From Gymnopus androsaceus JB14 (taxonomy: Eukaryota; Basidiomycota; Agaricomycetes; Agaricales; Omphalotaceae): 64,000 nt of DNA. Below the pieces are notes generated by a model. The model was not told where the DNA came from, did no database searches, and worked only from the letters and a program-made list of their open reading frames with translations. Position 1 is the first letter of the stretch; each line of letters opens with the position of its first letter. The position numbers were made by a program, and so were the translations under genes. This document shows positions 20,201 through 52,655 of this stretch, piece after piece. Location of the stretch: the NCBI GenBank assembly GCA_009733575.1, contig ML769442.1, positions 124,001-188,000 of the forward strand, given 5' to 3'.

Positions 20201-20816
20201 TCCAAGAGGGAAAGAAGAACAGATACTTACATCGCGCGGAATTATGTCTCTAAAAAATTCTTCAGACTCATATCTCAAAAACTGCGAATAGTATCTCTCC
20301 TCTTTCCTTCTACTACTGATCTGTTGTTCAATATAGTACGTGTCCGTACTTCCACCTCTATTACGACTATAGTCTTCGCAATGGTCAAGCTTCAAAGATA
20401 CCGAGTGTCGGTTCGCCTAAAATCCTTCTACTTTTACCTGTTCTCATCTGCTTATACGCTTTATCACTTCGAACGATTCACGATCACGCTATATGCGGCG
20501 GCTAATGCGAAACAACGCAAACTTGTCGCCACAGCGAGACAACCACGTCTTGCGACCTTCCGCGAGCTCACTTGAGCTGTGTAAGACAGAATCTAAGCTA
20601 CTCGAACAGAAACTCACGACGAGTTTTTAATCCCGGGAAGGGGACTCTTCTGCCAACTTGAGCTGATGTATTGGTCGTGCTATTCGCGATTGGCTGAGTC
20701 AATTTCTATACCCAGGCGTATCTTGAGCATCTTGAGCATTAATTGTAATCAGAAATGTATTCGCAATTGCACGTTTACATTGCGTTACATACAAGTATGT
20801 ACAATAAATTTACCAA
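17274..20816. other. Intergenic region with GATA 3' flank
   Basis: The first roughly 650 bases are a T-rich 3' flank of the GATA gene; part of it (about 17690-17930) recurs at 50220-50460. From 18.9 to 20.4 kb the minus strand has short open stretches with possible splice sites (19061-19321, 19651-19869, 20069-20395), but none shows a domain and I cannot join them into a believable gene. No RNA gene was seen. Confidence 0.45.
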
Positions 20817-23800
20817 TCAACGTGTATCATCGTCTTTGCTAGTTGCATCGACTTTGCTAGTGTCACCAGCCAATGAAGATTTGTCAACTGTGAACTGGAT
20901 GGCATCAACGGCAGGACGGGTTCGAAGATAGCTTTGTCCATAAATTTAGATCAAATAAATATCTCTTGAAGATTGGTGTACGTACTATAATCCCGTCTTC
21001 AAACCCTTCCTCCAACCATAAAAATGCATCGCAGTCTATCACAGCACCAATCAATGATTGCATTTCACACAAAATAAAATCGACACACCAACTGCTTCAC
21101 ACTTGGCTTCGCCACAAAGATGTTCAATGATTGACTCTGGCAAATAAACGGTCCACGATCAGCAGCCAAATCGACAATGCAGCGCTGAGGGATCTCCCAG
21201 ACAGTTTTGAAGATGGCCTTGACATCGTCAGGGATCTCCGGGATGCTCTGTACCGAGCCACCGTGCAAGATGAGTTGATTCTTCATCCGATCGTTCCAAA
21301 GTCCAAGGTTAACCAGCTCTTTAACAAGCCATGGACATATAACTTGAAATTCACCTGCAACTATTCGACGAGTATATAAATTCCTTGAACAACTCACTCA
21401 GACTTGACAGTGATTTCAGCAGGATTGTGACTCACGTAGTGTATGGCTCAAAGCACTCGTTGTTCCCCAAGATATGGCTCGTTGTCGCAGTAGGCATCAA
21501 CGCTACGAGGAGTGAATTCCTCAGACCTTTCTCAGCGATACGAGCTTTTAGGTCTTCCCACTTCCACAAATCACTAGGTTTCACCCCCCAGAGATCGTAC
21601 TGCAGCTGGCCCCGTTGTGCAGGACTACCCTCCCAAGTCTCGTATGGCCCAAAGCGCTCAGCAAGCTCCACGCTTGCCTCCAATGCGCCATGGTAGATTG
21701 TTTCAAATATTTGGAGATTGAGTGTTCGGGCCTCTTTGGACTCGAAAGGCATGCGGAGGCGCATAAACACATCCGCTAAACCTTGGACTCCAACTCCGAG
21801 AGGTCTGTGCCTTAGGTTCGAGTGGCGGGCAGAAGGGACAGGGTAGTAGTTCACGTCAATAATGCGGTCCAGATTTTTGGTAAGCACTTTAGTGACTGAG
21901 TGAAGTTTGGAAAAGTCGAACTGGCCGTCACGAACAAAGGATGGTAGCGCGAGGGAAGCAACACTGCAGACAGCCACTTCGTCTGGGGCCGTGTATTGGA
22001 TGATTTCAACGCAAAGGTTGCTTCCACGAATGACACCCAAGTTCTGCTGATTTGATTTGGCTAAAAGAAAAACATGAGAATAGTCACAAAAGACAAAAAA
22101 AAATCCGAAACTTACCGTTGGCGTGATCCTTGTATAGCATGAAAGGTCCTCCGGTCTCAATCTGAGCTGTGATAATAGCCAGCCATAACTTCGCGGATGG
22201 AACGAATGCGTTTCGCGCGCCCCTCACGTTCGTAACGCTCGTATAGCTCCTCAAACTGGGCTCCGTAGACCATATTGAGCCCTGGAGCTTCGCTGGGGCA
22301 GAATAGACTCCAATCTGCGCCATCCTGAACGCGCTTCATGCTACACCGATTACTGTCAATCCACAACGACGCATTCACGAAAGTGCCAAACTACTCACAA
22401 TAAATCTGGAATCCATAAGGAGCAGAACAGATCGCGTGCACGCATCTCTTCTTTACCATTGTTCTTGCGAAGTTCTAAAAAATCGAAGATGTCGTCGTGC
22501 CAGGGCTCAAGGAACATATTAAATGTCCCAGGTCGTTTCCCTGCGCCTTGGTCAATGTATCGTGATGCGACATCGAATGTGCGCAACATAGGCACTAAAC
22601 CTGGGGCGCGGCCGTTAGTCTCGGGAATGTAAGAGCTACGAAAGTGCACTGTAAGTAGATGTCAACATTGTTGAGAAGGTGCTGACCCTTTAGCGCGATG
22701 ATTGGAAATACTGACGGCCACTCCTGATGTGTGACGGGAGATCCGGGCGCACGTCGTTAAAGCTTCGAAGACCCCTTCTACAGAGTCATCACGCAAGCAG
22801 GTCATATAGCAAGAACAAACTTGGGGACGGGTGGTGCCGGAGTTGAAGAGGGTCGCTGATCTGTGTAAATTCATCGAATCGTTAGTGTGTATTCGGGGAA
22901 ACCAGTAGGTCGCTCACGCATGGGTGAAATATTTCTCGCTCATGAGGTTGTAAGATTCGATAACCCGCTCAATGTCATCTCCATGAATGCCAACTGCGAC
23001 TCTCATAAGAAGATGCTGTGGTCGTTCGGCCACTTTACCGTTCATACGGAGAAGGTAGGAGTGTTCTAGAGTCTTGAATCCAAAGCTTAAAATTATTTAT
23101 TAGTTCATTATGGAGATAAAGCAGGCATCTGACTTACTATTGATATTCAAAATCCCGTTCATGGACAATGGCGCGGTCGAGCTCGTCTTTGTGCTTCATG
23201 ACATTGTCGATGAAAAGATCAGATACCATTGGTGCAGCAAGACCACCAGTATTTGGTTGCACTAACCGAACATGAGAGCCAGGCAGAAAGATAAAACAAA
23301 CTACGTGCCATATGAATGTAACTCCTGCATGACTTCACTGAATCGCTCCTTGGTCTCACTGTGTAGTTTGGAGACAGCGATGCGAGCCGCAAGTGTGGCA
23401 AAGTCTGGATGTCTGGTGGTAAGACAAGCCGCTGTCTCGGCAGCCAGGTTCTGCTCTTCGAGTTAGAATAGCGCAGTGTCAGAAATGAAAGAGTAGACCT
23501 CGAGTTCGGCGGTTGTCATGCCAGGACACAAACCAGCGATTGTTTTGTTAAGGATCCTGGGGAGGTCAGTACAGCATCGAAAGGATAACGGAGTATATCA
23601 TACTCATTCGGATCAACGTAGTTGAGGTCAAGCCCATAACATGCCTGGAAAGTAGTCTTAACACAGAAACTGACACTCAATCAAGCGTCGAACCTGATTC
23701 ACAGTGTCCCTAAGCTAACGTGGCTTTAGAAATTATACTTTGAAGGAGAGCTGATAGTAATACCTTTTTAAGGTCGTAATCTTTGGCCTCCTGAATTAGT

Positions 23801-23857
23801 GCTCAGTAATGTTAGCTTCTCCGATGGAAGAGCACTCACACTAGAAAAGCGAGTCAT
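20817..23857 (-). CDS. Ribonucleoside-diphosphate reductase large-subunit-like protein, shortened at both ends
   Basis: Class Ia RNR alpha-subunit family, which reduces NDPs to dNDPs together with a beta subunit. Many short introns join into one apparently unbroken frame. Active-site residues are all present: PQVCSC (first cysteine of the redox pair), SNLCVEI (Asn, thiyl Cys, Glu), DEVAVC (second redox Cys) and LYYLRTRPA (the Tyr-Tyr pair of the radical path). Other family blocks are [53 protein letters not shown] and [19 protein letters not shown]. Two things are odd. The likely ATG at 23857 gives [20 protein letters not shown], with no KRDGR-type ATP-cone hairpin. At the other end the protein stops about 27 residues after the Tyr-Tyr motif ([11 protein letters not shown] at 20817-20819), without the usual long tail and CxxC. 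N-terminal exon borders are less certain than the core. Confidence 0.88.
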
Positions 23858-25044
23858 TACCTGTTTGAGTGAGGCTTGCAGGCAAAACTGGTCACGTACC
23901 TGTCTTTAGGGTGAGATTCTTGCACATGTAGTTCTCTCATATCCAAATTGAACTTGAAGAGAGGAGGGGGAGGGGCCTTTTCATACACGCAGCACACCTT
24001 TTATGTAGGTCAGTTACATAGGCCATAAGTACAATTGGACACATTGCTTTGGGTAACCACCAGCTCCACCCATCCTTGCGAGCGGACCCCCACGGACATT
24101 CGCTAGGTTCATCAAGATCTTTATGGGTCTAGTTGGAAAATAAGCCATGAACAATCGTTGATAGGCCTCTCCCGTTCTCCGATGACAATATTTTCAAACC
24201 CCATGGTGCTATTGGAAAGTTACAGCCTCGTTAGAAAGGGTATTGTTAACTTGAAAAGTAAATACTTCTTGTAGAATCTGGCTTGTGGAGGCGGTTTTGT
24301 GCACAATTTGGGAAGATGTCCAGAAATTGAGCAAAATATGGATGCAGCACGGATGTGAAAATAATACATTCAGCATCTGACAACGTGAACTTCGGAAAAA
24401 TTGAGTACCTAATGGGTATGCTGTATATGGCAAGGCCGTTATTCCAGATTCGTGCGATAGTTTAAGTTAACTGTTGGTGTATTGTGAGTTCAATGCCAAG
24501 ACAGACCGGGAATCATTGCAGTGCCCGAGGTGCTGTGTCATCAGACGTGGCGTAGCGCCCGAACCCTGAGAACGACGCAAACGACGCAATTTGAGTCTCC
24601 CTGAAACGCGCCTTGTGTAATCGTAAGACAAGACATACCACCAACATTCTAATTCATTTCAATCCAGGGTAGACCCAAGGTAGGCCTTTGTAGGTAGATG
24701 TTTGGAAAGTACCATTCACCACTTTCGTATCTTCCAAATGGTCCTCACGCGCCAAACGTGGAAGTTCGATCTTATTCTCTCTCGATTCTGTATCACAGGA
24801 AACAAGTTCGCCGGTTTACCGTGAACTTACCAAGAGCCAACGGATCTCGGAGTCTCCAAATTGAGAAGTACTTGGCGTTTGTTCAAAGTACTGTAATTTC
24901 ATGGTAACTTGTTTTCTATGTATGGATTGTACTGAAATTTTCTTTATTTCATCCCAGCTGCCGCCGATCTAGTTCACGAGTCTTCAAGCAGAGTCCCAAT
25001 CCACAAAAATCCGACCCCGCTCTACTTTCGTATCTCCGTCTACC
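23858..25044. promoter_or_regulatory. Divergent promoter region of the RNR-like and SAMHD1-like genes
   Basis: A 1.2-kb intergenic region lies between two divergent starts. It holds two ACGCG cores on the plus strand, at 24606-24610 and within ACGCGCCAAA at 24747-24756. The reverse complement of the latter, TTTGGCGCGT, matches the E2F/MBF-type S-phase element that controls RNR genes in other fungi. This is a motif match only. I saw no gene and no exon carrying an RNR ATP-cone here. Confidence 0.35.
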
Positions 25045-26716
25045 ATGTCTGGCATTGCAGCATATGGTCCCGAAGGCGAAACTCGCGTTTTCAACGATAA
25101 TGTCTTTGACTACATTGAGCTATCGCCACTAATGTGCGCAATCGTTGACACGTTAGTGCTCGCACCCCTCCCGTTTTCGTCGCCTGATTGACTCTTCAAT
25201 CTCTAGCCCCCAATTTCAACGTCTTCGCTACATCAAGCAGATGGGTATGGCATACTTCGTCTGGCCGGGAGCGAGCCACAACCGCTTCGAACATTGCCTC
25301 GGAACAGCACATCTCTCAGGGCTCATGGTCGAGCATCTCCAGAAGCATCAGCCAGAGCTTGGAATCACGGCTCGCGACATTTCCTGCGTCAAGATTGCGG
25401 GGTAAGTTCCCTTTTCCAGTGCTAGCGAAGGCTTAGCACTCACCATCGATTAGACTATGTCACGATCTTGGACATGGTCCGTTCAGTCATATTTGGGACA
25501 ACCAATTCATGCCTCTCGCTCAGTAAGTCATCTCGTGATGCTCTTTGTATTCAAAATGCTCATCGATAACAGACCCCACGGAGGATGGACTCACGAGCAC
25601 CAATCTGAAATCATGCTAGATGGCCTCATAGCAGAGAACAATGTACCTCTACCTCCTGCAGATGTTGCATTCGTTAAAGATCTCATTGCAGGGGAAGTGA
25701 AACACACGAAAGTACACTCACCCCCTGAGAAGTCATTCTTGTTTGAGATAGTCGCGAACAAACGTAACAGTCTTGATGTCGACAAATGGGACTATATCGC
25801 GCGCGACCTTCTCGCAACTGGTGACCGCGGTGATTGGAGTGCTCTACGTCTTGTTCAATCTGCGCGAGTGATTGATGGAGAGATTTGCTACAACCTCCGT
25901 GATGTTCACACCGTTTTCAATCTCTACCAGACGCGCTACAGGATGTACGGCATCTACAACCACAAAACTCGTGAGTATTCGAGTTACTGATTTAGGCTAC
26001 AATTGATCTGATAGCCCAGCAGGCAAGGCTCTTGAATGTATGGTGGTCGATGCTCTACTAGCAGCCGACCCATATATGCACCTCTCCCGCCGCGTTGAAG
26101 ACCCGAAGTCATACCTGCATCTTACCGATGATATTCTCTTGGAAATAGAACGATCAGATGATCCCCGTCTCAAGGAGGCCCAATCCATTCTGCGACGAAT
26201 CCGAGTGCGGGAGTTGTATAGACTGACAGACACGGTGCATCTTCCGTACGGTGCTCGCCTCAAGATCAAATCTATCTTCACTGCTGAGAATGTTGTGAAG
26301 GAGGCTCAGAACTTTGTGGAAGCTCATCCTCTCGCACAAGAGCTCTGCAATGAACACATCCTCATGGATATTACTCCTCTGCACTGGGGAATGAAGGATA
26401 AGAATCCATTTGACACTATCAAGTTCTATCGTGGCAAGGACAACATCCAAGGTATGTATATTCCTCCTCCAGGATCTTCAGCAATTTCTGAAAAAAATCT
26501 CAGAGTCTTTTCATCTTGGTCCATTGGACAAAACTCTGATTTTTCCTCAGGTTTTTGCTGAGGTCATGGTACGCGCATATGCCAAGGACAAAAAGTAGGT
26601 TTACACTGTCATGATCCAACGGTGTACTGAAAACCAGTGCGTTTAGATACGCTGAAACTGTACAAGCTGCTTTCAATGCCCTCGTTAACCGCTCACTCGC
26701 AGACCTTTTGGCTTAA
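25045..26716 (+). CDS. SAMHD1-type HD-domain dNTP triphosphohydrolase (455 aa)
   Basis: Hydrolyses dNTPs to deoxynucleosides plus triphosphate in characterised relatives. Seven exons (25045-25151, 25207-25401, 25454-25522, 25573-25970, 26023-26451, 26504-26594, 26638-26716) sum to 1368 nt with no frame break. The HD metal site is complete: His65 in GASHNRFEH, His104-Asp105 in [11 protein letters not shown], and Asp194 in [10 protein letters not shown]. Downstream blocks also follow animal SAMHD1 ([35 protein letters not shown]). There is no N-terminal SAM domain; the protein begins about 20 residues before the HD fold. It lies divergent from the RNR large-subunit-like gene and convergent with the RNR small-subunit gene. 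Family and catalytic competence are well supported by residues; the allosteric sites were not checked. Confidence 0.93.
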
Positions 26717-27659
26717 AAACATTGCAAGGAAATTTAATATCTAGTAGAATTTTGCCTCTCGTTGTACAATTGTTCATAGGAGCTGAAATATATATTTTCC
26801 TGTATCTTTCCGCTCACAATGGTACCCCCAATTGAATGATTCAGATGTCATCCCGTTCCGCAGAACAGAGCAAGAAGTACTGAAGTATACAGATCAATCT
26901 CTCAATGCATACCCTTGTCAGAGCCCAAATATTCTGCTCTGTTCCCGCGACGGTCCTGCGACTCTATGTGATATGATTTCTACCAGCCAAATTGCTGTGG
27001 AAGATTACATTCAGATTTTTGCTATTGTAACAGTATTCTCCAATCAACGAACACGACGAGTCGCGACTGCAGACAGGCTTTAGAATTAGTATGCAGAGTA
27101 TGCATTAACGAAAATCATCTTTGCTCAGCAAAAAGCCTGCTAGTGCTTTCGCCTTTATTCTGGATGCACTATGATACTTCCAATGTAAACTAAGTGACCA
27201 AATATGCACGCCATATCAGCCAAATTGCCCTTGATTGGAGTGTATCAGCCACATCTCGTAAAGTCGCTCCACGTATGTAGCAATCATTTCAAATCTCCTA
27301 TCAATTTTAGTACATAATTAATAGGTTCCATAGAATGCATCAGGAGGCTGCATTCAGGTCGATGATATGTTCAAGTAATGACAAAATGTTTTGACATATG
27401 TAGGCAAGAGATTGGTGTACATTAGAGGTTGTGAAATGGACCTTAATTTTCTGAAGCAAGCACAAACAGTACATAAACCAATCGCATCTTTCATTGAGTC
27501 ACTCGAGATAAAAGCTAGAGCCTATTCTCGATATGGTTTATCACCGATTACATAAAGGCCAAAGCGTTTGATATCGCCCTTAAACCAGGGCCATCTTGAT
27601 TCATATTCGTGTCGTCTTGTTGAGTGATCAATAAGTTTGGATGAATCACAAATCACAAA
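26717..27659. other. Convergent intergenic region
   Basis: The 3' flanks of the SAMHD1-like and RNR small-subunit genes face each other here. The stretch is AT-rich with no supported gene or repeat. Confidence 0.6.
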
Positions 27660-29028
27660 TTAAAAGTCTTCACTAAGAGTACTTGTAAGTAACAGAAATT
27701 AGTCACAGTGCCAATCCTGTAAAAGTAAGACGGCAAACCTGGAGATAGAGAAGGTAGCTTCATCTTTTTCTGCATCTTTTTCCCCAGAGAAGCCAGCGCG
27801 GGAGTACTCGCTCACTCTTCTCTCAAAAAAGTTTGTTTTTCCTTGCAGAGAAATGTTGTCCATGAAGTCAAACTGTCAATGTGAAGTGAGGAAAATTATT
27901 GAACCAGGTAGTTCATCATTTCTTACCGGATTTTGTGCATTATAGACCTTCGGGTGACCAAGTTCTCCAAGTAGTCTGTCTGCAACAAACTCGATGTATG
28001 TCTTCATCAGATCTGCATTCATTCCAATCAACGCCACAGGGAGTGCCTCTACGTGCAAGGATAATATGAGCATTGAAAGTAAGAAGCTCAAACGGAGTTG
28101 TACCTGTGAGGAATTCCTTCTCAATACTGACTGCCTCAGTGATGATATTTTTCACGATATCGGCATGAGGTCGTCGGCGAAGATGACGGAAAAGAACACA
28201 CGCAAAGTCAGTGTGTAAACCTTCGTCACGACTGATTAGCTCGTTTGAGAAGGTCAACCCGGGCATCAAGCCACGCTTTTTCATCCAGAAGATGCTTGCA
28301 AATGCGCCAGAGAAGAATATACCCTCGACCGCAGCAAAAGCAACGAGCCGTTCCGCAAAGGTAGAATGCTTGTCACTGATCCATACACGTGCCCAATCGG
28401 CCTTCCGTTTTATGCAGGGGATGCACTCGATTGCAGCAAAGAGCTTGTCGCGCTCGGCTTTGTCTTGGATGTAGGTGTCAATAAGCAAGGAGTAAGTCTC
28501 GGAGTGGATATTTTCCATCATGATCTGGAAACCATAGAAGCAACGAGCTTCAGCAGCCTGAACATCACTACTGAATCGCTCCACTAGATAGTTCATCCAA
28601 GCAATAGTCAGATTCCATCATTACTTGCTCGATGGAGGACAAATTACCGAGATTTTCGTTAACAATTCCATCGGATGCAGCGAAGAAAGCTAGGATATGC
28701 GAGAGAAAGTGTCTTTCATTAGCGGTCAGAGAGTTCCAGTGTGCGATGTCTTTGCCAAGATCTATCTCCTCGGCAGTCCAGAACGAAGCCTGTGCTGTTT
28801 AAGTGTGAGCGCAGCGAATACAGAGATGACAACGTTCAAATCAAACCACCTTTTTTGTACATATCCCATATCTTCAGTCAATGTGAGTATGACTAAAGTA
28901 CTACAAAAAATAGTAGAGACTACCTCTGGAAACTGGATAGGGAGCAGGACAAATCGACGAACAGATTCTTTAAGTAAAGGCTCGTTCTGTTCTTCACAGT
29001 GGAGGTCACCAGTAAAACGATCGGTCAT
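27660..29028 (-). CDS. Ribonucleoside-diphosphate reductase small subunit (343 aa)
   Basis: Class Ia RNR beta subunit, which houses the di-iron/tyrosyl radical used by the alpha subunit. Seven exons (29028-28924, 28871-28850, 28794-28648, 28583-28104, 28048-27927, 27872-27739, 27681-27660) sum to 1032 nt in one frame; exons 2 and 7 are only 22 nt each. Metal ligands and radical residue are present: Asp in [10 protein letters not shown], Glu, His and Tyr in MENIHSETY, Glu in VEGIFFSG, and Glu and His in RDEGLH. The last exon supplies the C-terminal TLSEDF, the acidic-Phe tail that docks the beta subunit onto alpha. The N-terminal extension before EPLLKE is only about 16 residues, shorter than in most fungi. 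It lies on the same strand as the large-subunit-like gene, with the SAMHD1-like gene between them. Confidence 0.95.
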
Positions 29029-29944
29029 GGTTTGATGTGGTTAGGGATTGAACTGATGAACTTCAAGTGGTTACGCCTTTTACAGGCGTTTGCTTTAGAC
29101 CTTGGAATGATGCTCGAATATTTACTGTTTGTTCGAGATGTTTACCATCCTAAAGAGGTAAAGTCGCGCGGGCCCCACATTGTTGTATTGAAACAAATGA
29201 GAACAAATCAAAATAAGCAAAAAAAATTCGGACATCATTCCGAGGTCTAAGGCATACCTGTAATAAATTGTCTAGATGAACTGAAAATTCTCATGAGGAA
29301 GATATAGCTCCGTCCTGCTCCGTCGCCAACCGGGCTTTCTTGATATGCACCACATTGTAGCTGGAATCAATCGAATCTCCATCTGCACATACCTCCATAA
29401 AGACAGCCAAGCATTTTCTCGAAGATGGGGCCTGGTTTGCGGGGCAGAGCTCATACTATTGCTAGGTAAACCCCTGTCAGAACGTGTGTCGTAATAATAG
29501 TACACTTGGTGGGGATGACTCCTTCCTAGCACATACCCGTATATTCCCTTATATCGTACAAGGCATGGCCTTTTGGCCAGACCATAAGGGATAGCTTCCA
29601 TATATAGAAGGTCCTCCATACTTAGAAACTTTCCTGGTAGTGTAATCACGAACTCTCGAGTACTCGGACCAAGGTTCAATGCATATGGCAAGGTTGGCCC
29701 ATCGTTTTTACCAAGTTACGTTTGATCGAGAACAAAGAAAAAGGCATTGGCGGATTTTCACTTGAGTGCACTTAGAGTGTATTAGCCACGTGTCTCAAAA
29801 CGATTTACGGGAGCTAATTCAAACTTGACCGAAAACTTTCTGAGAAATGCAATATGGATCACAAAGCATTTCACCACATATCTGTTGGGGGTCTTTTCCC
29901 CGTGGTCTTTCTATCTCATCCTGCTGTTAATTTTCCTCAGGACC
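29029..29944. other. Intergenic region between RNR small subunit and MFS genes
   Basis: Divergent promoter region. A 139-codon minus-strand ORF (29272-29691) has no recognisable domain, no splice-supported extension and no visible homology within the window, so I do not call it as a gene. Confidence 0.5.
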
Positions 29945-32171
29945 ATGTCTTCATCTGTCGCTATGAGCGAAAGCTTTGAGCAACCCGTCATGACATGGAC
30001 ATCAAACAGCGCTCCTCTTCCGATCTCGAAGCAGAGTGGCTTCAAGTCCATGCCTCGAGAAAGGATTGCGATACTGCTTATCAGGTTCTTCGCTTTCTTT
30101 CTGGAGATTTTCTGCTGGACTCACGTCCGTTCAGTCTTGGCTTATGTACATTTCTGTACGCCGTAGGTGAAGTTCCCGCGTCGCTCCTCCCAAGCTGGTA
30201 TTGATTACATCTTCCAGCGAACACCATAGCGGCCACAAGCGCGACAACCATCGCTTCCAAGCTCCATATCGACGGGTCCATCACGGCGCGTTACCCTTCT
30301 CACCTACTCGATGAGCGACTCTGAATGACAAATGTTTCAGTGGATAACGAGCTCTTACCTGCTGACGGCCACGGCATTTTCGCCCGTCATTGGGAGACTG
30401 GCAGTAAGCTCTCTGCCGCATCTTCCACCCCATGATTGACCATGTATACTCAGGCCGTGACCGGTCAAAAAGTTCTGCTCTTTGCAGAACTTTGGATCTT
30501 TATCATTGGCAATGTCATAGCAGGTTCAGCGCACAACCTCACTCAACTTGTGGGAGGACAGTTAGTCAGTGGTGTAGGGGGTATGTCGTTCGACGATAAC
30601 ACATGTGAAGAAGAACTACTGATGGTTTTCAACTACTAGGCGCTGGGCTCCTAGCACTGTCCGTCATCATCATTACAGGTGTGATCTGTCCGTCTTTATA
30701 GTCTCCTGAATCCTGATTGCGACGAAAATGTAGAGTTAACAGATGAACGCGAACGGAGCACCTACCTGAACTTGGTCAACGCGATCTTCATCATTGCTGA
30801 TGCTATCGGTCCCGTTCTTGGATCTACTTTTGCTCTCAAGGCATCCTGGCGTTGGATCTATCTTTTTAATGCACCTTGTGGAGCTTTTAGTGAGTTAATG
30901 CAAGTACTCGGCGAATTGAGTCGCTCATTTTAACAGTAACTGTCTTCTTGTACCTGAGTCTTCACTTGCCGCCTGTGCCTGCGCGGAGGTTGTCGCTCAA
31001 AAAAATAGCCGAGGATCTCGATATTCCAGGGATGTTTAGTATCACCTCATCCTTAGCACTGCTGATAATCGCATTGAATTTGGGCGGCCAAGCAAAGCCA
31101 TGGAGCTCAACAATTGTTATTGGACTGCTCGCTGGATCAGCAGCCAGTCTCATCCTATTTGTGGTCATTGAAAAGTTATGGGCTGAGAAGCCTCTCGCGC
31201 CAATGCAACTTTTCACTTCATGGGAAGGAAGGAACCTGCCATGTATGCTGATCGTGCGGACACTGCTGTTTTTCCATTTGTTTGCAATGGTTCGTGAAAC
31301 GAGATTTATCAAATGAACTACTAACCAAATGTACTTGTGTAGACTTTTTATCTTCCACTATTCCTGCATATAGTATTGAACATGTCACTTCTCGTATCTT
31401 CGCTCCTAGTCATTCCGTTCTTATCCACTGCATCCATCAGTAGTGCCATATTCAGTGCGCTATCATCACGCACAGGGATTGTGAGACCGTTCTTGCTCGG
31501 CTCACTGCTAATTCTGTTGGTTGGCCTCGCGCTTTTCACGACTTTGGATTCGACGAGTTCCTTGGCGTTGGTAATGGGATACTCTGTAGTATGCGGCTTC
31601 GGATTTGGTGCAGTATGTATCTCTTTCTCTCCACTGGCACAGTGACCGATGTCTCCTTGAAACAGGGTACTCAAATCACTATTGTTGTGGCACAGGAAGG
31701 ACAGGACGAAGTAAACCTTCCAACAGTGACAGCGTTAATGACAACGACGACTACTCTTGGAGGAGTAATTGGAGTAGCTCTCGTTGGCGCCGTCATCTCG
31801 AACACCTTGAAGAACCGACTCGGAGAATATATTTCACAGACTGTAAAGGTTCTCTCCGATTTTCATTTTATAAGATCAGCGCTGACTGGGAGAAATAGCC
31901 AAATTATGCAGACCCTGCGTCGCTGACTTCCTCTGGCGTGAGCGAGTCGCGTCTGAGTACAGAATATGCACTTGCATTTTCACGCTCTTTTCTCGTTCTA
32001 ATTGGTGCTGTGTGTCTTCAGATCCTGCTTTGCTTGTTTCTGCGAACGGTGAAATTTGAAGGAACTGCGCAGAAAATCATTGAGCCCAAGGTTGAAGGGG
32101 ATTTGGGCATGAATCCCGCCATGGATATTAGTCTTGCTCACCAAATGGAACCTAAGAGCGAGCTACAGTAA
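29945..32171 (+). CDS. MFS multidrug-type exporter (DHA2-like, 14 TM)
   Basis: Major facilitator superfamily drug:proton antiporter-like protein in the plasma or vacuolar membrane. The start ATG is at 29945. Blocks in order: a cytosolic N-terminus, TIASKLHIDGSIT joined to WITSSYLLTATAFSPVIGRL, QLVGGQLVSGVGGAGLLALS, IIADAIGPVLGSTFALKASW (motif C region), then pairs of hydrophobic helices to the C-terminal helix LVLIGAVCLQILLCLFL. About eight introns are spliced. The intron after GSIT (about 30287-30350) has no GT at its 5' end and would need a GC donor (GCGCGT). The C-terminal exons were copied to 52.19-52.65 kb. The neighbourhood (RNR-like, SAMHD1-like, DUF4243) would fit export of a small molecule; the substrate is unknown. 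Confidence 0.87.
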
Positions 32172-34007
32172 TAATAAAAGCAGTTATAGCAGCAGTATGG
32201 TGCCGTAGCTATGCACCTCGCTTCTTGGTGGTTTTGTGAATTTACAGACAACATCCACCAACAACAACACGACCAAAGTATAGCTCGTTCATTCATTCGG
32301 GCGTTAATCTTCGGTTTGGATTGAATAGAAAGTAAGATCTATCCCTCATCCTTTATCCTTGACCGGCTTTGGCTTCAGCGTAGACATATAGGAATAGTCG
32401 GAGGGCACTGATGTAGCCTAGAGGAAGTCGTTTCGAAGAATATGAAGGCTGGACACAGACGCGAGGAAAAATGCACTGGGAAGGGACGGCAATGTGTATT
32501 TATGAGATCTCCCAAATCACAGCTCTATATCGACGGATGATTATCTCTACCACGACTTGTTCAACAGCATTCCAGCGCTAGACGTGCACGGCTCTTCAAC
32601 CTATAAACTTCCACTCCTCTATTCGCCCAGACTCCGTCCTGAGTTGTCTAAGAACAGGAAACGCAGGAAGCTGAAGTTGCTGACACAGTTCATGCAGCAG
32701 AGTTGGTGTGGGTGATGAGTGAAATTAGAGTGAGAATGGCCGTGTAGATGCATATCACTTGACTATATCAAATCCCAGTTAACTTACAGAAACAAAACAG
32801 TGCTACAGCGCCGTAGGCCGCCGGTGTGACTCTCTTCGTAATGCCGAATTTTAAGGGTTGTTGAAGGGGTTGTCAACTGACATTAGGGCTGTTCAGTAGA
32901 ATAATCCATTAGAATCCCATTTCACGAACACCAAATCGGGAAAGCTGGATGTTCAACCCAAAAAAGCAGGTCAATTGCCAAGCAATTGCCAAGCCACAAT
33001 TTATCTCGGTTTTCCCCGCAACCGAGTGTCAATTGACCGATATCACCGACCATTGCAACACTGCCAACAGGGCTTCAAGTAGCTCACAGACAATTGAATT
33101 GAGCTCAATGAAGGGTTCACAATCAACGATTAACAGGCTGCGACTAAGTTGTGACTTGTGGGCAACTTGACCGTGACAATCCGGTCAACCCGGTCAATCA
33201 ATACACGGTTTTTTACAATGAACGACCGTAGGTCTCGGACTCAAGTTTCGAGGTGGTATGGTTTAGCTGAACGACCAGGTTCATTCTGCCCTACTTGCCC
33301 TCGTTTAGCCAGTGTCACGGTAGTTTCCCTCAGTGACTAGTATGTATGCTCAATAAATTTCGGTTGTTCTCGAAATCTTAGCCCACAACCATAATGACAT
33401 ATATGTCATTATTTCTTGGAACGGGTAAGTATACTACAAAAAAAGCAATGTAAAAATGAGCACTGGAGGGTCGGATCAACTTCGCCGTTGCCCAGAGGAG
33501 GAAGATTTCGAGGAAGATGGACTACTTATGCTGCGTTAGGGAAGGGGAACTGAATGGGTGCCACCGAGCGCAAAATGTACTATCATTGATTCATTGATCC
33601 GATCCGAGTTGTCCTGCGGTCTAGTCAGTCTGATATGTTGATTTAGGACAGGATGTCGGACTAAGTATGCCCATATTTAGAAAGCCCGACAGTTTGTACA
33701 TTCATAGGCAGGCCCTCACATAGATGAACCTTCCGTACCGAGTCCAACTTGGACTGTGAGTGCTCAGGCGATGCTCAACTAAAGGAGCACATGTAATATC
33801 GGTAGGCTATCTGAGTAGTTCACAGTATAAGAACTCGACTCGTCTTCGTTTGGAATCCCATTCAACTCCCTAAGTTTTTTTCCGCTGGTCGGAGAAAGCT
33901 CTTGAATCCAACTTTGCGCTGGTCGTCGACGTCGAATCCTTTCATTCAGTATCCATCTTATTCCACCTCGATCTACTATCTCGACTCTCCTTTTTCGAGC
34001 TTCCCAA
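32172..34007. other. Intergenic region
   Basis: No gene is supported. The part around 32850-33200 contains repeated GTCAA/TTGAC-type words (for example CGGTCAACCCGGTCAATC at 33181-33198) that look like the remains of a repeat, but I could not define ends. Confidence 0.4.
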
Positions 34008-35150: not shown

Positions 35151-36233
35151 ATGAAATCAAGCTTATATGTGGTACTAAAGGATTATTCACATAGTATCAG
35201 AGTCATATCCGGAATAGTAGTTTCTTTGACGGAATATAATATTGAGCGAAATGTATGGTTTGGTGGCCCATGTCCTGAGTTCTGTGGAGATGACAAGTTT
35301 TTCAAGTTCGTAGCCTTACCTCGGCATAGGAATGGCCTGAATGGTAACATAGCAGTGACAATATTTCGCCGTCGTTGTATTCAGAGGGATCATGAGGCCG
35401 ACCCCGTCCATAGTCCTTGTCCATAGTCATTTTCTCCACTAAGATCACTCATCGGGCAACCAGGCGAGGCATCGAAGCACTCTAGTGCAGGAGCAGGTCG
35501 GTTTGAGTGGTGAGAGTTGAGGAAGGGATCAAAGTGAGATATCACTCGTTTGAGCGCTTGGGCTGGAAATCCGCCTATGGGCAATTGGCAGCCAATCTAA
35601 TTGCTCTAAAGATATCAGGAGATCTTCTGGACTCGTAGATTGATTATCTTCACTGTCTCGAGAATTAAAGTCAAGTCAAGATTCGTAGACGCCTATGAAA
35701 CAGGCGCTTACGAGCGGAACGTTCTTCTTTCGGACCAAGGTGCTATATTTACTAGTCACAATTCACATATCAGGATCATTGGAAATCTCGTTAGCCCGAA
35801 TGAAGAAAAATCATTCGCTTAGTTGTTCAAATCCCACTAGTGAGGTTGGATTTTTGGGTTCTCGACTTGGTGAGTCTAGTCCCTGGTCCATCTTTTTTCT
35901 GACATCGTCAATATGTTCTAAGATCATCACCAAATCTCCAGCCCCATCTTCAACACCAAAACCATGATCAAATGACTAGACTCGAACCAGTAGCTTCGGT
36001 GTTGACACCTTGATGACAGTCGATCAAAGGCGCCAGCGAAGCTAAGTGATTCCGCACATCACGTCTCTGCAGCAGGGAGTGGTTCGAGTCTATCAAATGA
36101 CCAGCAATACCTGTGTTCTTCCTACGACAATATCTCAGCTTTTCGGCAATCAGGAAAGATGCGATCCACAGTCTAGTGGATACTGTAGCGTTTATAAAGG
36201 ACAGATTTTCGGGAAATCTCCAACAAAGCTGCT
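35151..36233. other. Intergenic region, partly duplicated downstream
   Basis: No gene is supported. From about 35750 the sequence recurs, with deletions, at 50630-50800 in front of the truncated DUF4243 copy. Confidence 0.6.
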
Positions 36234-39769: not shown

Positions 39770-42370
39770 CCAAACTGAAGCTGTATGTCCTCTCAATGGC
39801 TCTCTAATGGGGCTGGACCAGTCTCTGCACTCCAGATTCTCACCGTTTCATCTGCTGATCCTGAGATAATCTGCTTCCCATCTGGGGAGTATGCCACTGA
39901 CTAAGCTGAATCTGTATATCCTCTCAGTGGCTCCCCAATGGGTAAACCTGTCTCAGCACTCCAGATTCTCACTGTTTCATCTGTTGATCCTGAAACAATC
40001 TGCTTCCCATCTGGGGAGTATGCCACTGACCGAACACCAGCTGTATGTCCTCTCAATGGCTCCCTAATGGGCAGACCTGTCTCTGCACTCCAGATTCTCA
40101 CTGTTTTGTCTGTTGATCCTGAAATAATCTGCTTCCCATCTGGGGAGTATGTCACTGACCAAACTGAATCTGTATGTCCTCTCAATGGCTCCCCAATGGA
40201 CAAACCTGTCTCGGCACTCCATATTCTCAATGTTTCATCTGTTGATCCTGAGATAATCTGCTTCCCATCTGGGGAGTATGCCACTGACTGAACTCCAGCT
40301 GTATGTCCTCTCAATGGCTCCCTAATGGACAGACCTGTCTCTGCACTCCAGATTCGCACTGTTTCATCTGTTGATCCTGAAATAATCTGCTTCCCATCTG
40401 GGGAGTATGCCACTGACCAAACTGAATCTGTATGTCCTCTCAATGGCTCCCCAATGGGCAGACCTGTCTCCGCACTCCAGATTTTCACTGTTTTGTCTGT
40501 TGATCCTGAAAGAATCTGCTTCCCATCAGGGGAGTATGCCACTGACTGAACTTCAGCTGTATGTCCTCTCAATGGCTCCCCATAGGCTGAACCTATCTCT
40601 GCACTCCAAATTCTCACTGATTTGTCTGTTGACCCTGAAACGATCTGCTTCCCATCTAGAGAGTATGCCACTGGCCGGACTGAAGCTGTATGTCCTCTCA
40701 ATGGCTCCTCAACGGGCATACCTGTCTCTGCACTCCAGATCTTCACTGTTTTATCCAATGATCCTGAAACAATCTGCTTCCCATCTGGGGAGTATGCCAC
40801 TGACCAAACACCAGCTGTATGTCCTCTCAATGGCTCCCCAATGGGCAGACCTGTCTCTGAGCTCCAGATTCTCACTGTTTGGTCATATGATCCTGAAACA
40901 ATCTGCTTCCCATCTGGGGAGTATGTCACTGACCAAACATCAGCTGTATGTCCTCTCAATGGTTCCCCAATGGGCAGACCTGTCTCTGCACTCCAGATTC
41001 TCACTGTTCTGTCCCATGATCCTGAAACAATCTGCTCCCCATCTGTGGAGTATGCCACTGAAAAAACTGAATCTGTATGTCCTCTCAATGGCTCCCCAAT
41101 GGGCAGACCTGTCTCTGCACTCCAGATTCTCACTGTTTTATCCCATGCTCCTGAAACAATCTGCTTCCTATCTGGGGAGTATGCCACTGACCAAACACCA
41201 GCTGTATGCCCTGTCAATGGCTCCCCAATGGGAAGACCTGTCTCTGCACTCCAGATACTCACTGTTTCATCCACTGATCCTGAAACAATCTGGTTCCCAT
41301 CTGGGGAGTATGCCACTGACCGAACTCCAGTTGTATGTCCTCTCAATGGCTCCCCAATGGCCAGACCTGTCTCTGCACTCCATATTCTCACTGTTTCATT
41401 CTCTGATCCTGAAACAATCTGGTTCCCATTTGGGAGTATACCACTGACCAAACTGAATCTGTATGTCCTCTCAATGGCTCCCCAATTGGCAGACCTGTCT
41501 CTGCACTCCATATTCTCACTGTTTCATCCTCTGATCCTGAAACAATCTGCTTCCCATCTGGGGAGTATGCCACTGGACCAAACTTCAGCTGTATGTCCTC
41601 TCAATGGCTCCCCAATGGCCAGACCTGTCTCTATGCCTCCAGATTCTCACTGTTCTGTTCCCATGATCCTGAAACAATCTGCTCCCCATCTGGGGGAGTA
41701 TGCCACTGAAAAAACTGAATCTGTATGTCCTCTCAATGGCCCCTCAATGGCCAGACCTGTCTCTGCACTCCATATTCTCACTGTTTTGTCTGTAGATCCT
41801 GAAACAATATGCTTCCCCCCTGGGGAGTATGCCACTGACTGAACTTCAGCTGTATGTCCTCTCAATGGCTCCCCAATGGCTCCCAATGGCAGACCTGTCT
41901 CTGCACTCCAGATTCTCACTGTTTTGTCTGTTGACCCTGAAATGATGTGCTTCCCATCTGGGGAGTATGCACTGACAGACTAAATCTGTATGTCCTTTCA
42001 ATGGCTCCCCAATGGCAAGACCTGTCTCTGCATTCCAGATTCTCACTGTTTCTGTCTGTTGATCCTGAAACAATCTGCTTCCCATCTGGGGAGTATGCTA
42101 CTGACCATAACTGAAGCCATATGTCTCTCTCAATAGCTCCCCAATGGGCAGACCTGTCTCTGCACTCCAGATTCTCACTGTTTTGTCTGCTGATCCTGAA
42201 ACAATCTGTTTCCCATCTGGGGAGTATGACTACTGACAAAACTCGAAGTTTGTATGTCCTCTTAATGGCTCCCCAATGGGCAGACCTGTCTCTGCACTCC
42301 AGATTCTCACTGTTTTGTCCCATGATCCTGAAACAATCTGCTCCCCATCTGGGGAATATGCCACACAGGA
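39770..42370 (-). repeat. WD40 repeat array of copy A, about 20 near-identical 129-bp units
   Basis: Each 43-residue unit follows the pattern [43 protein letters not shown]. Units are nearly identical at DNA level, and variation concentrates in a few residues after GHT (DSV, AGV, AEV, ASV) and after SGS. Such internally homogenised arrays are known from HET-D/HET-E-type incompatibility genes, where repeats are exchanged by unequal recombination. Confidence 0.9.
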
Positions 42371-42767
42371 TACACATGCTCCTACATGGATTTGATTGAT
42401 TTCCTCCCTCCAGAATTGATTCCAACCCCTATCATTTACTTTATTTCTCAAGTTTTTGCTTATATAACCTGCCAGTAATGTTTTTTCTGGGAGCATGGCC
42501 AATGCACTCACATATAAATGTGGAGTGCTGTGACTAATTGGAAGAAAGAATGCTGATATGAACTTTGAAATATCCTTACTTCCTATTCTAATGTCCATGA
42601 TCTATATTTGTGTTTTAGTAGATATTCCCCTTTGCAAATCATTTCTGTACCTTTGTTGTCTTTGCCAAATAGTCCATGGTAGTTCTTATCTGTGAAGTTT
42701 CATTCTAACAACTCAAGCATTCCATCCAGTATACAATGTTTGGGCTTTGAATGAAGCTGGTTATATC

Positions 42768-43502
42768 TAGTGTTTCTCATGGGTCAACCCATGAGTTTCC
42801 AGACACCTAACCGCACCCACACCCACATGGGTAAATACCCATACCCACACCCGTAACCGCCAGAATTCACAAACCGCGGTAATACCACGGTAACCCACGG
42901 TCAACCACACAAGCGAAAGATTTAAAATGGTACAAACTACACTATCAAATGTCAAACTTTGTACTACTATAATTCAACTCGGGGTGCCTGTATTGATATC
43001 CAAATCCTCAGGCCTCCAATCCATTCTGACTATATAATATGACAAAAGTCATAATATATAGTACTTTAAAGCTTTTATACAACTCTTGCACAGTTGTAGT
43101 TGTGGATTGGTCGAAAATGGATAGCGTAAAGTGAGCAGTAGATATAAATAATGTAAAATCGAAGGTTGAGAGGGCATCACATAGAGTTTATGGAGTCTGC
43201 ATTGATGTCGAGAAGGTAATTCGTTGGTTGAGACCCTGCTCAAAAAATAATGCGAAGATTGGGCAGCATGGGCGAAAGGAACAGAAAGGCCATTCCCACG
43301 ATGGAGGTGCCTGCAATACACATCCATAATTATGTCAAGCCCGGAGCACGGAAAAGTCGGACCGTATAGAACCGCAAACCCAGTAAACCCGCGGTTTGGG
43401 TAGCGGTTCTAGTGGGTTTAGCATCCCAAGTGACCGCACCCATACCCACCAGGTACCCACATGAAATACCATGGGTTGACCCACTACCCATGAGAAACAC
43501 TA
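42768..43502. mobile_element. Non-autonomous hAT-like DNA transposon (735 bp, 8-bp target duplication)
   Basis: Terminal inverted repeats of 17 bp (TAGTGTTTCTCATGGGT) are flanked by an exact 8-bp duplication GTTATATC at 42760-42767 and 43503-43510. Eight-base duplications and TAGTG-type ends are hAT hallmarks. Subterminal regions are rich in ACCCAC/ACCCGC words. There is no transposase ORF. The homologous place in copy B (about 56470-56480, GCTATATCAGTC) lacks the insert, giving an empty-site control. The element interrupts the NACHT-WD40 reading frame. Confidence 0.9.
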
Positions 43503-50629: not shown

Positions 50630-52188
50630 TCCGAGTCACAATTCACCTATCAGGATCATCGGAAGTCTCGCTAGTGGGTTCTCGACTTGGTGAGTCGCTT
50701 CTGGTCCCTGGTCCATTGTCTTTTTCCGACATCACGGACATACCAAAATCTCCAGCGCCATATTCAACACCAGCCATGATGAACTGACCAGCAATGCTTC
50801 TACACCAATATCTCACGGAAATCAGGGGGAAAAAATCCATGCCACGACCATCACGCCAGAAGTACAAAAAAATCCGCTCAAATGAAAAACGGACTGATTA
50901 AGAACCTTTTAGACAAAAAATCGCTCATTAGTGAATTTTTGAGTGAAAATTGATTATTCAGCTCAACCGAAATGGAATTTCCAACTGAAAGATAATCATT
51001 CAGTCAAGAAATTCCATTTCGGTTGAGCTGAATGATTAATTTTCACTCAAAAATTCACTAATGAGCGATATTTTGACCGAAAAGCTCTTAATCAGTCTAT
51101 TTTTCTCTCGAGCAGATTTTTTTGTACTTCCGGTGTGCATGATACTGACGACAACACAAGTGAGTATTCATCTGCAAGTTATTGGTCATCCTTGGTTGTA
51201 GTCATTCCGCACATCACATACTAGCTCGCTGGGCTCTTGGAGCTCATCAGGATCTACTTCATGGAAGTTACCACGAGAACACTCATTTACAGCGCCTGAA
51301 ACCAGAGATCACAGAAGCTATCGCTTCGTCCAACTTCAATGACCATCTTGGAGACAAAACGTGAGTTTAAGCGAAGTTTTACCTTGTCCGCATCCTGTGA
51401 ATCGTTTTCCAGGAAGTATTCCGCCTATCTTGAGTTTTTTGACAATGTGGTACGAAAGCACAAGGGATCCTAATGGAACAATATATTTACTCGACCAAGG
51501 CCAATTTTGGAAGTACATCACGAAAGGGTAAGCACCCTCAAATGACTTGTCCTCGAGATAGCTTTACACCCCATGATTCACTTTGGTTACGGTGTCGAAT
51601 TTTGACTACCTGTAATGTTGAGCGAAGGTAAGTCGACCCGGTCGCGTGTAAGAAAAAATTTACCCACTCGAGGTGTCAATTATAGGTCTAGCCCGAAGCG
51701 CTGTCCATCCAGTGCACTTCGCGCCACTGATCCCTGAATCGCTCTTTACTTCGGTGTTGAGTGCTCCAAACGAGACACAACCTGGCGGTCCCTCCGTGCA
51801 TGCTTTTACCGTTATAGCGCGCATTCTTGCCGATCCTCAATTCAAGATTCCAGGAACCACCTTCTTCGAGATTATCCCCTCAACTCTTCATGAAGCATGG
51901 CGCAGCTTTCAGGGAGCATGTAAACCAGTGGAACGTGGATCTCAAGAAACTTGCCACTGATCCAAAAGAAATCGATCGGAAGATTGAGGAGTTGCAGTGG
52001 ATCAATTTTGCATGCTGTTTCTGGGTATACGAACTCTCTGGTAAAGGTTGATCTCTCTCAGGATGCTAACGATCTTTTTCCGTAGTATGCACCTGGTTAC
52101 ATCCGCCCTCTTCTTACCCATCCTCGCTGCCCATCTCTGCCCGACATCCCAGGCTCTCCTGCTTCGAGCATACTTTACCGTTTCACTT
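50630..52188 (+). pseudogene. Truncated copy of the DUF4243 gene and its upstream region
   Basis: Matches 35750-37510 in order: upstream region (50630-50800), end of exon 1 with its donor (51142-51162), exon 2 (HHILARWALGAHQDLLHGSY), exon 3 and later exons to ILAAHLCPTSQALLLRAYF. Frameshifts and deletions break it (for example near 51470, 51550 and 52010). A 278-bp palindromic element lies inside. The 3' part of the parent (everything after TYFTVSLT) is missing; at about 52188-52196 the sequence switches to the MFS gene. Confidence 0.9.
50856..51133. mobile_element. Fully palindromic foldback MITE (278 bp)
   Basis: Nearly the whole element pairs with itself: ends read CC(A/G)GAAGTACAAAAAAATC, and inner arms share ATTCCATTTCGGTTGAGCTG and CACTCAAAAATTCACTAATG in inverted order around a loop near 50990. 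It is inserted in the exon 1 region of the broken DUF4243 copy and is absent from the parent gene. No clear target duplication was seen. Confidence 0.85.
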
Positions 52189-52189
52189 T

Positions 52190-52655
52190 CGCGTAGCACA
52201 GTGATCGATGTCTCTTTGAAACAGGGTACTCAAATCGCTATTGTTGTAGCACAGGAAGGACAGGATGAAGTAAACCTTCCAACAGTGACAGCTTTAATGA
52301 CAACGACGACCACTCTTGGAGGAGTAATTGGAGTAGCTCTCGTTGGCGCCGTCATCTCAAACACCCTGAAGAACCGACTCAGAGAATATATTTCATAGAC
52401 TGTAAAGCTCCTCTCCAATTTTAATTTTATATGATCAGCGCTAACTGGGAGAAATAGCCAAATTATGCAGACCCTGCATCACTGACTTCCTCTGGCGTGA
52501 GCGAGTCATATCGGAGTACAGAATATGCACTTGCATTTTCATGGTCTTTTCTCGTTCTAATTGGTGTTGTGTGTCTTCAGATCCTGCTTTGCATGTTTCT
52601 GCGACTGGTGAAATTTAAAGGAAATATGCAGAAAATCATTGAGTAAATGCAGAAT
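52190..52655 (+). pseudogene. 3' fragment of the MFS exporter gene
   Basis: Matches 31640-32075 of the MFS gene at high identity, starting inside its intron (CACAGTGATCGATGTCTC) and continuing through GTQIAIVVAQEGQDEVNLP to the last helix. CAG has become TAG at 52396-52398, and a shift/stop ends the tail near 52645. Because the piece begins in intron sequence, it was copied as genomic DNA. Confidence 0.92.

Follow-up and report, generated by a model that had tools for sequence, protein, structure and literature searches.

Class I ribonucleotide reductase (RNR) is generally regarded as a housekeeping enzyme. As described in the accessible part of PMC5704485, the C-terminal cysteine pair of the class I enzyme passes electrons to the active site, and in the split class II enzyme NrdJa+NrdJb the terminal cysteine domain is carried by a separate chain. 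According to the accessible portion of PMC11188397, the Cns1–Cns4 cordycepin/pentostatin cluster of Cordyceps militaris comprises an oxidoreductase, the phosphate-removing enzyme Cns2 and an outpumping protein, and yields nucleosides. A search of the open-access literature on RNR clusters, RNR together with SAMHD1, RNR self-resistance, and tail-less or duplicated large subunits (R1), judged by title or the start of the abstract, gave no published description of a cluster of the kind proposed below.

The window, that is, the whole analysed stretch of 64,000 nucleotides (on contig C60), comes from the 83.3-Mb genome of Gymnopus androsaceus JB14. The initial annotation placed here three adjacent genes, R1-like, SAMHD1-like and RNR small subunit (R2), and all three indeed occur within about 8 kb (Table 1). 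Their extent had to be revised, as the next gene, encoding a putative MFS exporter, is part of the copied unit: contig C23 carries all four genes again as a block, with DNA identity of 85–92% to the C60 copy and in unrelated surroundings. The two copies are not alleles of one locus, since matches outside the block are limited to 116 bases and an MFS fragment (50 kb of C23 read), and R2 is inverted. They represent one duplication and hence do not provide independent evidence for a four-gene unit. No PKS, NRPS, P450 or other enzyme beyond the four genes was seen in the copied block, whose gaps went without a family-level search. NLR-like genes (NACHT with WD40 repeats) are situated near the block in the window, outside the copied unit.

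Table 1. Positions of the block and its genes in the window.
Feature	Position	Strand	Remarks
Duplicated block	20571..32253	.	match to contig C23 (~178.9-191.9 kb; R2 inverted there)
R1 paralog (RNR large subunit) lacking the C-terminal CxxC tail	20835..23647	-	12 modelled exons
SAMHD1-like HD gene (predicted dNTPase)	25045..26695	+	7 modelled exons, 446 aa modelled, no frameshift; very C-terminus unfixed
RNR small subunit (R2)	27663..28989	-	7 modelled exons including a short last one
Putative MFS exporter gene	30041..32114	+	modelled on P0243: 11 exons, reaching 32084; modelled on P0241: end at 32114; no frameshift in either
Extra partial MFS copy (3' end of the same gene)	52186..52643	+	80.6% aa in best piece

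Separate RNR genes, a point that the initial annotation had left for checking, do exist: canonical R1 (at C7) and R2 were found elsewhere in the genome, and the block does not hold the only ones. The expected number of chance placements of R2 and HD loci at most 9 kb from one given R1 is about 6e-7 (an after-the-fact estimate from six R2 and two close HD places in 83.27 Mb). Given this number and the second block on C23, chance clustering is rejected.

Purifying selection acts on all four block genes, since dN/dS between the C60 and C23 copies is 0.06–0.18 (R1 0.056, R2 0.104, HD 0.113, MFS 0.184); the synonymous distance is 0.17–0.30, and a very recent break would be invisible to dN/dS. These values bear on the possibility that the genes are decaying leftovers, duplicated paralogs losing function and linked by accident. 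Apparent frameshifts occur in both block copies (one in R1 of C60, near 22207; one in HD and three in R2 of C23) and in R2 of a third locus, C144, and may be read in this way, as may seven other canonical-type R1 copies (C775, C146, C27, C493, C377, C313, C164). The latter are clearly decayed, all seven score higher with the canonical than with the short query, and they were rejected as further clusters. However, decay is at odds with dN/dS this low over such a synonymous distance and with retention of the short R1 clade in three genera. Moreover, a one-base slip of the same kind in a canonical-type R2, C3a, hints at assembly error as the source of such slips. Decay appears very improbable. 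The accessible part of PMC8480192 gives the sequencing platforms of its new genomes (Illumina and PacBio) and does not state the method used for JB14.

The initial annotation assigned both halves of a class Ia RNR to the locus. This holds for R2, whereas R1 is not a complete alpha subunit, as its redox tail is absent and the gene has an apparent frameshift. In P0121, the database protein of the window R1, the Pfam domains ATP-cone, Ribonuc_red_lgN and Ribonuc_red_lgC all score above the cut-off. The ATP-cone does so in P0122 as well; the first exon(s) at C60 and C23 are unfixed, the exon search having given differing low scores. The short R1s of C60, C23, C144, Rhodocollybia (R. butyracea) and Lentinula (L. 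aciculospora) form one group (support 100/100, n = 5; trees were built from 36 and 31 chosen rows), inside which two subgroups cut across genera. The CxxC motif is situated at most 10 residues from the end in 59 of 60 canonical-type R1s (the first 60 of P0125–P0240 longer than 830 aa), compared with none of the four annotated short R1s even within 40 residues. For Rhodocollybia and Lentinula the absence of the tail is taken from annotated proteins, not from DNA. At C60, C23 and C144 there is no sign of an overlooked C-terminal exon with the redox tail: an ungapped motif scan over some 3 kb of downstream DNA, which would miss an intron-split motif, yielded best scores of 11–14, against 100 at the control C7.

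The thiyl cysteine, the two partner cysteines and the active-site Asn and Glu are all kept in the C60, C23, C144 and Lentinula R1s; the Rhodocollybia protein model is missing the stretch with one partner cysteine. The Tyr-Tyr radical-transfer pair is kept in all five short R1 rows. The substitutions K243R, G246S, A263P, G264E, G290A and N291G are present in 5/5 short R1s, whereas at each of these positions 57–60 of the 60 canonical-type R1s share one other residue. Further, residues 214–303 hold 23 of the 53 fixed differences between short and canonical R1s, with 6.4 expected. In this alignment the predicted specificity loops of the short R1 clade are altered. A viral origin of R1 was considered and rejected: P0122 matched nine viral contigs at 45–63% (best segments), below the ~65% to fungal R1, although a scan for close relatives is weak evidence.

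The R2 exons span 28989..27739, with the short last exon at 27672..27663; the frame is open, and the very N-terminus lies outside the model. The 1h0n R2 chain can be aligned with 305 of the 308 modelled residues. The metal-ligand and tyrosine regions are conserved and the C-terminus reads ..SEDF; we take these features to be the metal ligands, the radical Tyr and the Phe-ending docking peptide. Retention of this peptide is consistent with a regulatory or heteromeric role of the short R1 within the housekeeping RNR: the short R1 would borrow the canonical R1 tail in mixed oligomers and alter the effector response, the cluster being a stress-induced RNR set; yeast Rnr3 and Rnr4, specialised RNR paralogs, offer a comparison. 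But then the changed substrate and effector loops require another reason, and the HD gene and the exporter are left unexplained. We regard this explanation as quite unlikely.

The SAMHD1-like gene was initially described as an HD dNTP triphosphohydrolase with a complete metal site, and this was borne out: the motifs H, HD and D, presumably the metal site, are all present, and the best solved relatives of the protein are 9mr6 and SAMHD1 chains (E ~1e-96). The HD domain scores above the Pfam cut-off, HD_assoc_2 is just below it, and the SAM domain is absent. On its HD metal site and catalytic-core homology the protein qualifies as a SAMHD1-like dNTPase, the activity being predicted. Three near-invariant positions are changed (L48M, H249Y, K250G) in both the C60 and C23 proteins; the canonical HD set comprised 46 rows (P0008–P0060 less 7 entries, P0061–P0120 left out). 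The short HD proteins (relatives of 444–456 aa) make up a separate group among SAMHD1-like proteins. A viral origin was rejected here as well, as the query P0003, a Mycena relative, matched no viral contig, again in a close-relative scan that is weak evidence.

RNR and the HD enzyme are opposites within one pathway, and the block could be a module controlling the dNTP pool. At some special stage of life (spore germination, starvation, DNA damage) dNTPs would then be increased by the extra RNR and decreased by the HD enzyme, a substrate cycle resembling the balance that RNR and SAMHD1 keep in housekeeping metabolism, and the MFS gene would be incidental. Conservation of R2 and of the R1 core, and the wide occurrence of SAMHD1-like proteins in the Agaricomycetes among the matches listed, agree with that. 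However, the genome also has housekeeping genes for R1 and R2 and a further SAMHD1-like gene (C17, modelled with two apparent frameshifts), the altered loops and the loss of the redox tail would be strange in an enzyme that simply supplies dNTPs, and the MFS gene, which was copied as part of the block, is under purifying selection. Hence we consider such a module rather unlikely. SAMHD1 depletes dNTPs as a defence in animals, and the HD enzyme might likewise starve viruses or transposons, the private RNR refilling the pool afterwards. The NLR-like NACHT/WD40 genes of the window would suit this role, but they are not in the copied block and no feature is specific to defence; the chances of this explanation seem very slight.

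The C23 twin of the window MFS protein, P0241, scores above the cut-off for both TRI12 (PF06609), the trichothecene-efflux family, and MFS_1 (PF07690), which makes export a putative function. An efflux pump together with altered R1 loops may also suggest a self-resistance set: an altered duplicate RNR tolerating an RNR inhibitor that is made or met by the fungus, accompanied by an enzyme that hydrolyses a toxic nucleotide analogue. SAMHD1 does act on nucleotide analogues. Against this, no inhibitor biosynthesis genes were noticed in the copied block, the surroundings of the two copies are unrelated, and a resistant target would not be expected to lose its redox tail. This set is in our opinion highly unlikely.

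The third locus, C144, has a short-type R1, R2 and another MFS gene adjoining. In its longest aligned pieces the latter is only 19–24% identical to the block MFS, and by a rough count about 0.02 MFS neighbours would be expected there by chance. A weak R1 match was seen on C1. HD and the block-type MFS are linked to RNR in this genome only, the one whose neighbourhoods were read, and HD stands beside R1/R2 at two places, both from one duplication. In all three comparable species (Cylindrobasidium torrendii, Mycena crocata and M. vitilis) the contigs with the close HD relatives differ in length from those with the listed canonical R1, and none of the 120 R1 matches listed is a short R1 of these species. 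None of the 120 MFS matches listed, of 204, falls on a contig with the length of those from Rhodocollybia, Lentinula, Cylindrobasidium or Mycena. Thus, the contig comparison leans against conservation of the HD neighbour in relatives.

Three meanings were offered initially: a dNTP-pool module, starvation of DNA parasites, and a pathway to a modified deoxynucleoside. We favour the last one because R1 has no tail, a putative exporter gene belongs to the block and selection is purifying, and this interpretation is supported in part. The block may be a small specialised-metabolism cluster: a divergent RNR would produce a (deoxy)nucleotide, from which the HD enzyme would release the nucleoside for export by the MFS protein; we hold this with somewhat less than even confidence. 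The partnership of R1 with its own R2, the substrate, the product, the direction of flux and the export are what we infer. The cluster would have arisen from duplicated nucleotide-metabolism genes. Its own R2 would supply the tyrosyl radical to the tail-less R1, and together they would make a (deoxy)nucleotide, possibly a non-standard one in view of the altered specificity loops. Electrons would come not from the tail of this R1 but, for example, from a housekeeping R1 tail within a mixed dimer, or else no external reductant would be needed. Housekeeping kinases would phosphorylate the product, the SAMHD1-like enzyme would remove the triphosphate in one step, and the resulting free nucleoside would leave through the MFS protein.

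A wider and more doubtful proposal is that in Gymnopus, Rhodocollybia and Lentinula relatives a class I R1 was recruited out of DNA precursor supply, lost its tail and changed its loops, its radical reaction giving a non-canonical (deoxy)nucleotide that a SAMHD1-type enzyme turns into an exported nucleoside. Eukaryotic R1 paralogs that are under selection and have no tail are a natural experiment, the outcome being either electrons supplied in trans or different chemistry. If a secreted nucleoside is made, RNR would join the enzymes that build natural products of the nucleoside type, and SAMHD1-type enzymes would gain a biosynthetic role.

Compared with class Ia R1 (human RRM1, yeast Rnr1), the short R1 has the same domain order, thiyl cysteine, partner cysteine pair, active-site N/E and YY pair, and shares about 65% identity with canonical R1 from fungi. 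It differs in the missing C-terminal CxxC tail, in loop 1, loop 2 and near-substrate positions that are (nearly) invariant in the 60 canonical-type R1s, and in 11–12 modelled introns versus 8 in the C7 gene. The HD protein resembles SAMHD1 and fungal SAMHD1-like dNTPases in the HD motif and catalytic core by sequence, at the E-value given above; its membership in the short group, the three substitutions and the absence of a SAM domain set it apart. NrdJa+NrdJb is a class II, B12-dependent bacterial enzyme, and no separate tail protein is known from the block. The Cns1–Cns4 cluster, as far as it is described in the accessible portion of PMC11188397, is likewise a small fungal cluster with an oxidoreductase, a phosphate-removing enzyme and an exporter; however, no RNR subunit is named there, and Cns1 and Cns2 are other enzymes. 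The block MFS shares both Pfam families, as seen in its C23 twin, with TRI12-type exporters of fungal toxin clusters, but is only about 43% identical over the full length to the closest relatives outside this genome among the matches listed, with one match at 48% over 70%. As for the Cordyceps proteins, Cns2 has an HD-type fold, and Cns4 is an ABC pump, not an MFS protein.

The clustering of genes for a ribonucleotide reductase (RNR) large subunit (R1), a SAMHD1-like dNTPase (HD) and an RNR small subunit (R2), proposed in the initial annotation, is real: all three genes could be modelled, and their Pfam families score over the cut-off. An MFS transporter gene is the fourth member of the block. 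The models were built by six-frame reading and a custom spliced aligner; the genome comprises 934 contigs (83.27 Mb). The R1 model from the window, which spans positions 124001-188000 of contig C60, coincides with the JB14 protein P0121 at 725 of 726 aligned residues.

Genes of the block in the window, of its second copy (contig C23) and of the third RNR pair (contig C144)
Gene	Location	Strand	Remarks
Window R1-like	23647..20835	-	12 exons; Pfam family over cut-off, via database protein P0121
Window HD	25045..26695	+	7 exons; Pfam family over cut-off
Window R2	28989..27663	-	C-terminal end ..SEDF; Pfam family over cut-off
Window MFS	about 30041..32114	+	C23 twin P0241 over cut-off for MFS_1 and TRI12
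C23 R1	about 179.3-182.1 kb	-	
C23 HD	184.6-186.3 kb	+	
C23 R2	187.1-188.5 kb	+	
C23 MFS	189.7-191.8 kb	+	
C144 R2	about 152.8-154.1 kb	-	
C144 R1	157.0-159.9 kb	+	

The clustering is not due to chance. The DNA identity between C60 and C23 is 85.6% for a piece of R1, 92.4% for HD, 84.8% for R2, which is inverted, and 87.5% for MFS, while in the 50 kb of C23 that were compared the matches are confined to window positions 20571..32253, apart from an MFS fragment at 52203..52639 and a hit at 35977..36092. Hence the whole block was duplicated together into unrelated surroundings, with an inversion of R2 in one copy. The fragment (52186-52643, plus strand), about 20 kb downstream of the block MFS gene, comes from the 3'-end of that gene and is a remnant of another copying event. 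Two features of C23 are absent from the window block: a GFO/IDH/MocA-type oxidoreductase-like ORF (by eye; 178150-178833, plus strand) adjoining R1, and dUTPase-like ORFs (by eye; 196148-196856, minus strand) about 4.4 kb past MFS.

All four genes are under purifying selection, the Nei-Gojobori dN/dS between the copies being 0.056 for R1 (dS 0.295, 742 codons), 0.104 for R2 (dS 0.262, 305 codons), 0.113 for HD (dS 0.170, 445 codons) and 0.184 for MFS (dS 0.222, 472 codons); these values are averaged since the copying, and a very recent break would stay invisible. Single genes may be decaying, if the apparent one-base slips in C60 R1 (one), C23 HD (one), C23 R2 (three) and C144 R2 (one) are real. 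However, a slip of this kind occurs once in a canonical-type R2 on contig C3 (C3a), which hints at assembly error.

The RNR pair on C144 is older than the block copies; its R1 has 77% protein identity to that of C60. The search of the genome's contigs found no HD match on C144. Some 1 kb past the end of R1 begins an MFS gene, by eye of the DHA2 subfamily (tblastn E values 6e-13 to 1e-16), with 19–24% identity to the C60-type MFS in the longest aligned pieces. The chance expectation of such a neighbour is about 0.02, given 293 first-look MFS candidates, but as this genome count is rough, the association is suggestive only.

Housekeeping RNR genes are present apart from the block. The canonical R1 on C7 aligns through residue 888 of the 888-residue canonical query, and C165 and C3 carry further R2 genes, those on C3 (335.8-339.0 kb) forming a divergent pair (less than 1 kb between the modelled parts, C3a with an apparent frameshift). 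C17 carries another SAMHD1-like gene, in which the model built on a distant query shows two apparent frameshifts; weaker HD matches are on C383 and C490. Seven scattered, partly fragmentary canonical-type R1 copies (C775, C146, C27, C493, C377, C313, C164; loci L036-L043) are decayed, each with frameshifts or stops.

In the database, the window R1 is most closely related to four short proteins (752–781 aa), two from G. androsaceus and one each from Rhodocollybia butyracea and Lentinula aciculospora. Canonical R1s possess a long linker and terminate in ..CSLENK.ACVMCSG (three of three inspected). A CxxC is found among the final 10 residues of 59 of the 60 canonical-type R1s, but the final 40 residues of the four short ones contain none; for Rhodocollybia and Lentinula the absence is read from annotated proteins. 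An ungapped scan of the DNA downstream of the short R1s for the tail motif scored at best 11–14 at C60, C23 and C144, the control C7 scoring 100. In class I RNR, the C-terminal Cys pair passes electrons to the active site, according to PMC5704485. The class Ia label of the initial annotation needs correcting, as this R1 lacks the redox tail.

The short R1s retain the thiyl Cys, its partner Cys, Asn, Glu and the YY pair, except that the Rhodocollybia model lacks the stretch bearing one Cys. There are 53 columns that are at least 95% conserved among the 60 canonical-type R1s and deviate in each of the six short rows (a gap was scored as deviating in 7 of 53). Of these, 23 fall within residues 214–303 of the short R1 P0122, compared to 6.4 expected (hypergeometric p 2e-9, range picked post hoc). 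They include K243R, G246S, A263P, G264E, G290A and N291G (human numbering, that is, P0122 position minus 3, from the alignment), which occur in five of five short rows, at positions that we take to be the specificity loops and substrate site. In the midpoint-rooted tree all five short R1s form one group (100/100), with subgroups {C144, Lentinula} and {C60, C23, Rhodocollybia} spanning genera; therefore the tail loss is most simply old and would have persisted through two or more genus-level splits, barring gene transfer between genera. Such retention argues for function over decay of the short R1.

The R2s of C60, C23 and C144 keep the Phe-ending tail and, by alignment (for C60 also against chain 1h0n), the regions that presumably contain the metal ligands and radical Tyr. 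The HD protein has an intact HD motif and clusters with Cylindrobasidium, four Mycena proteins and one further relative (100/100), separate from the tree's remaining 28 rows of fungal SAMHD1-like proteins; three of the four Mycena species carry the other type too. At near-invariant positions, both block copies have L48M (L in 45/46 canonical), H249Y (H in 46/46) and K250G (K in 45/46). HD and R1 lie on contigs of different length in all three comparable species (Cylindrobasidium, M. crocata, M. vitilis), and none of the MFS relatives among the 120 of 204 matches listed is on a contig as long as those concerned in Rhodocollybia, Lentinula, Cylindrobasidium or Mycena; therefore the complete unit of four genes is known from a single genome.

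Outside the copied block, about 4 kb past MFS, the window has a Questin oxidase-like gene (PF14027; 36238-37974, plus strand), of a family employed in fungal secondary metabolism. Two similar NACHT-type genes (39901-44923 and 53059-57900, minus strand), each followed by WD40-like repeats, have by eye an NLR-like architecture; Pfam confirms NACHT for the former, the other features being read by eye.

The best single reading, held tentatively and at slightly less than even confidence, is that the block may encode a specialised nucleoside pathway. The gene set, block copying, selection and residues are observed features. Beyond these, the tail-less R1 with R2 would produce a (deoxy)nucleotide, a housekeeping kinase would phosphorylate this product up to the triphosphate, which the HD enzyme would cleave into nucleoside and triphosphate, and MFS would export the nucleoside. 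PMC5704485 provides precedents for electron supply without an own tail: direct reduction of the RNR active site by DTT, class II RNR where the tail of one subunit hands electrons to the site of another, and a split enzyme. In design, the cordycepin cluster is the closest known counterpart: according to PMC11188397, cordycepin is made by Cns1/Cns2, and the outpumping of pentostatin is governed by Cns4.
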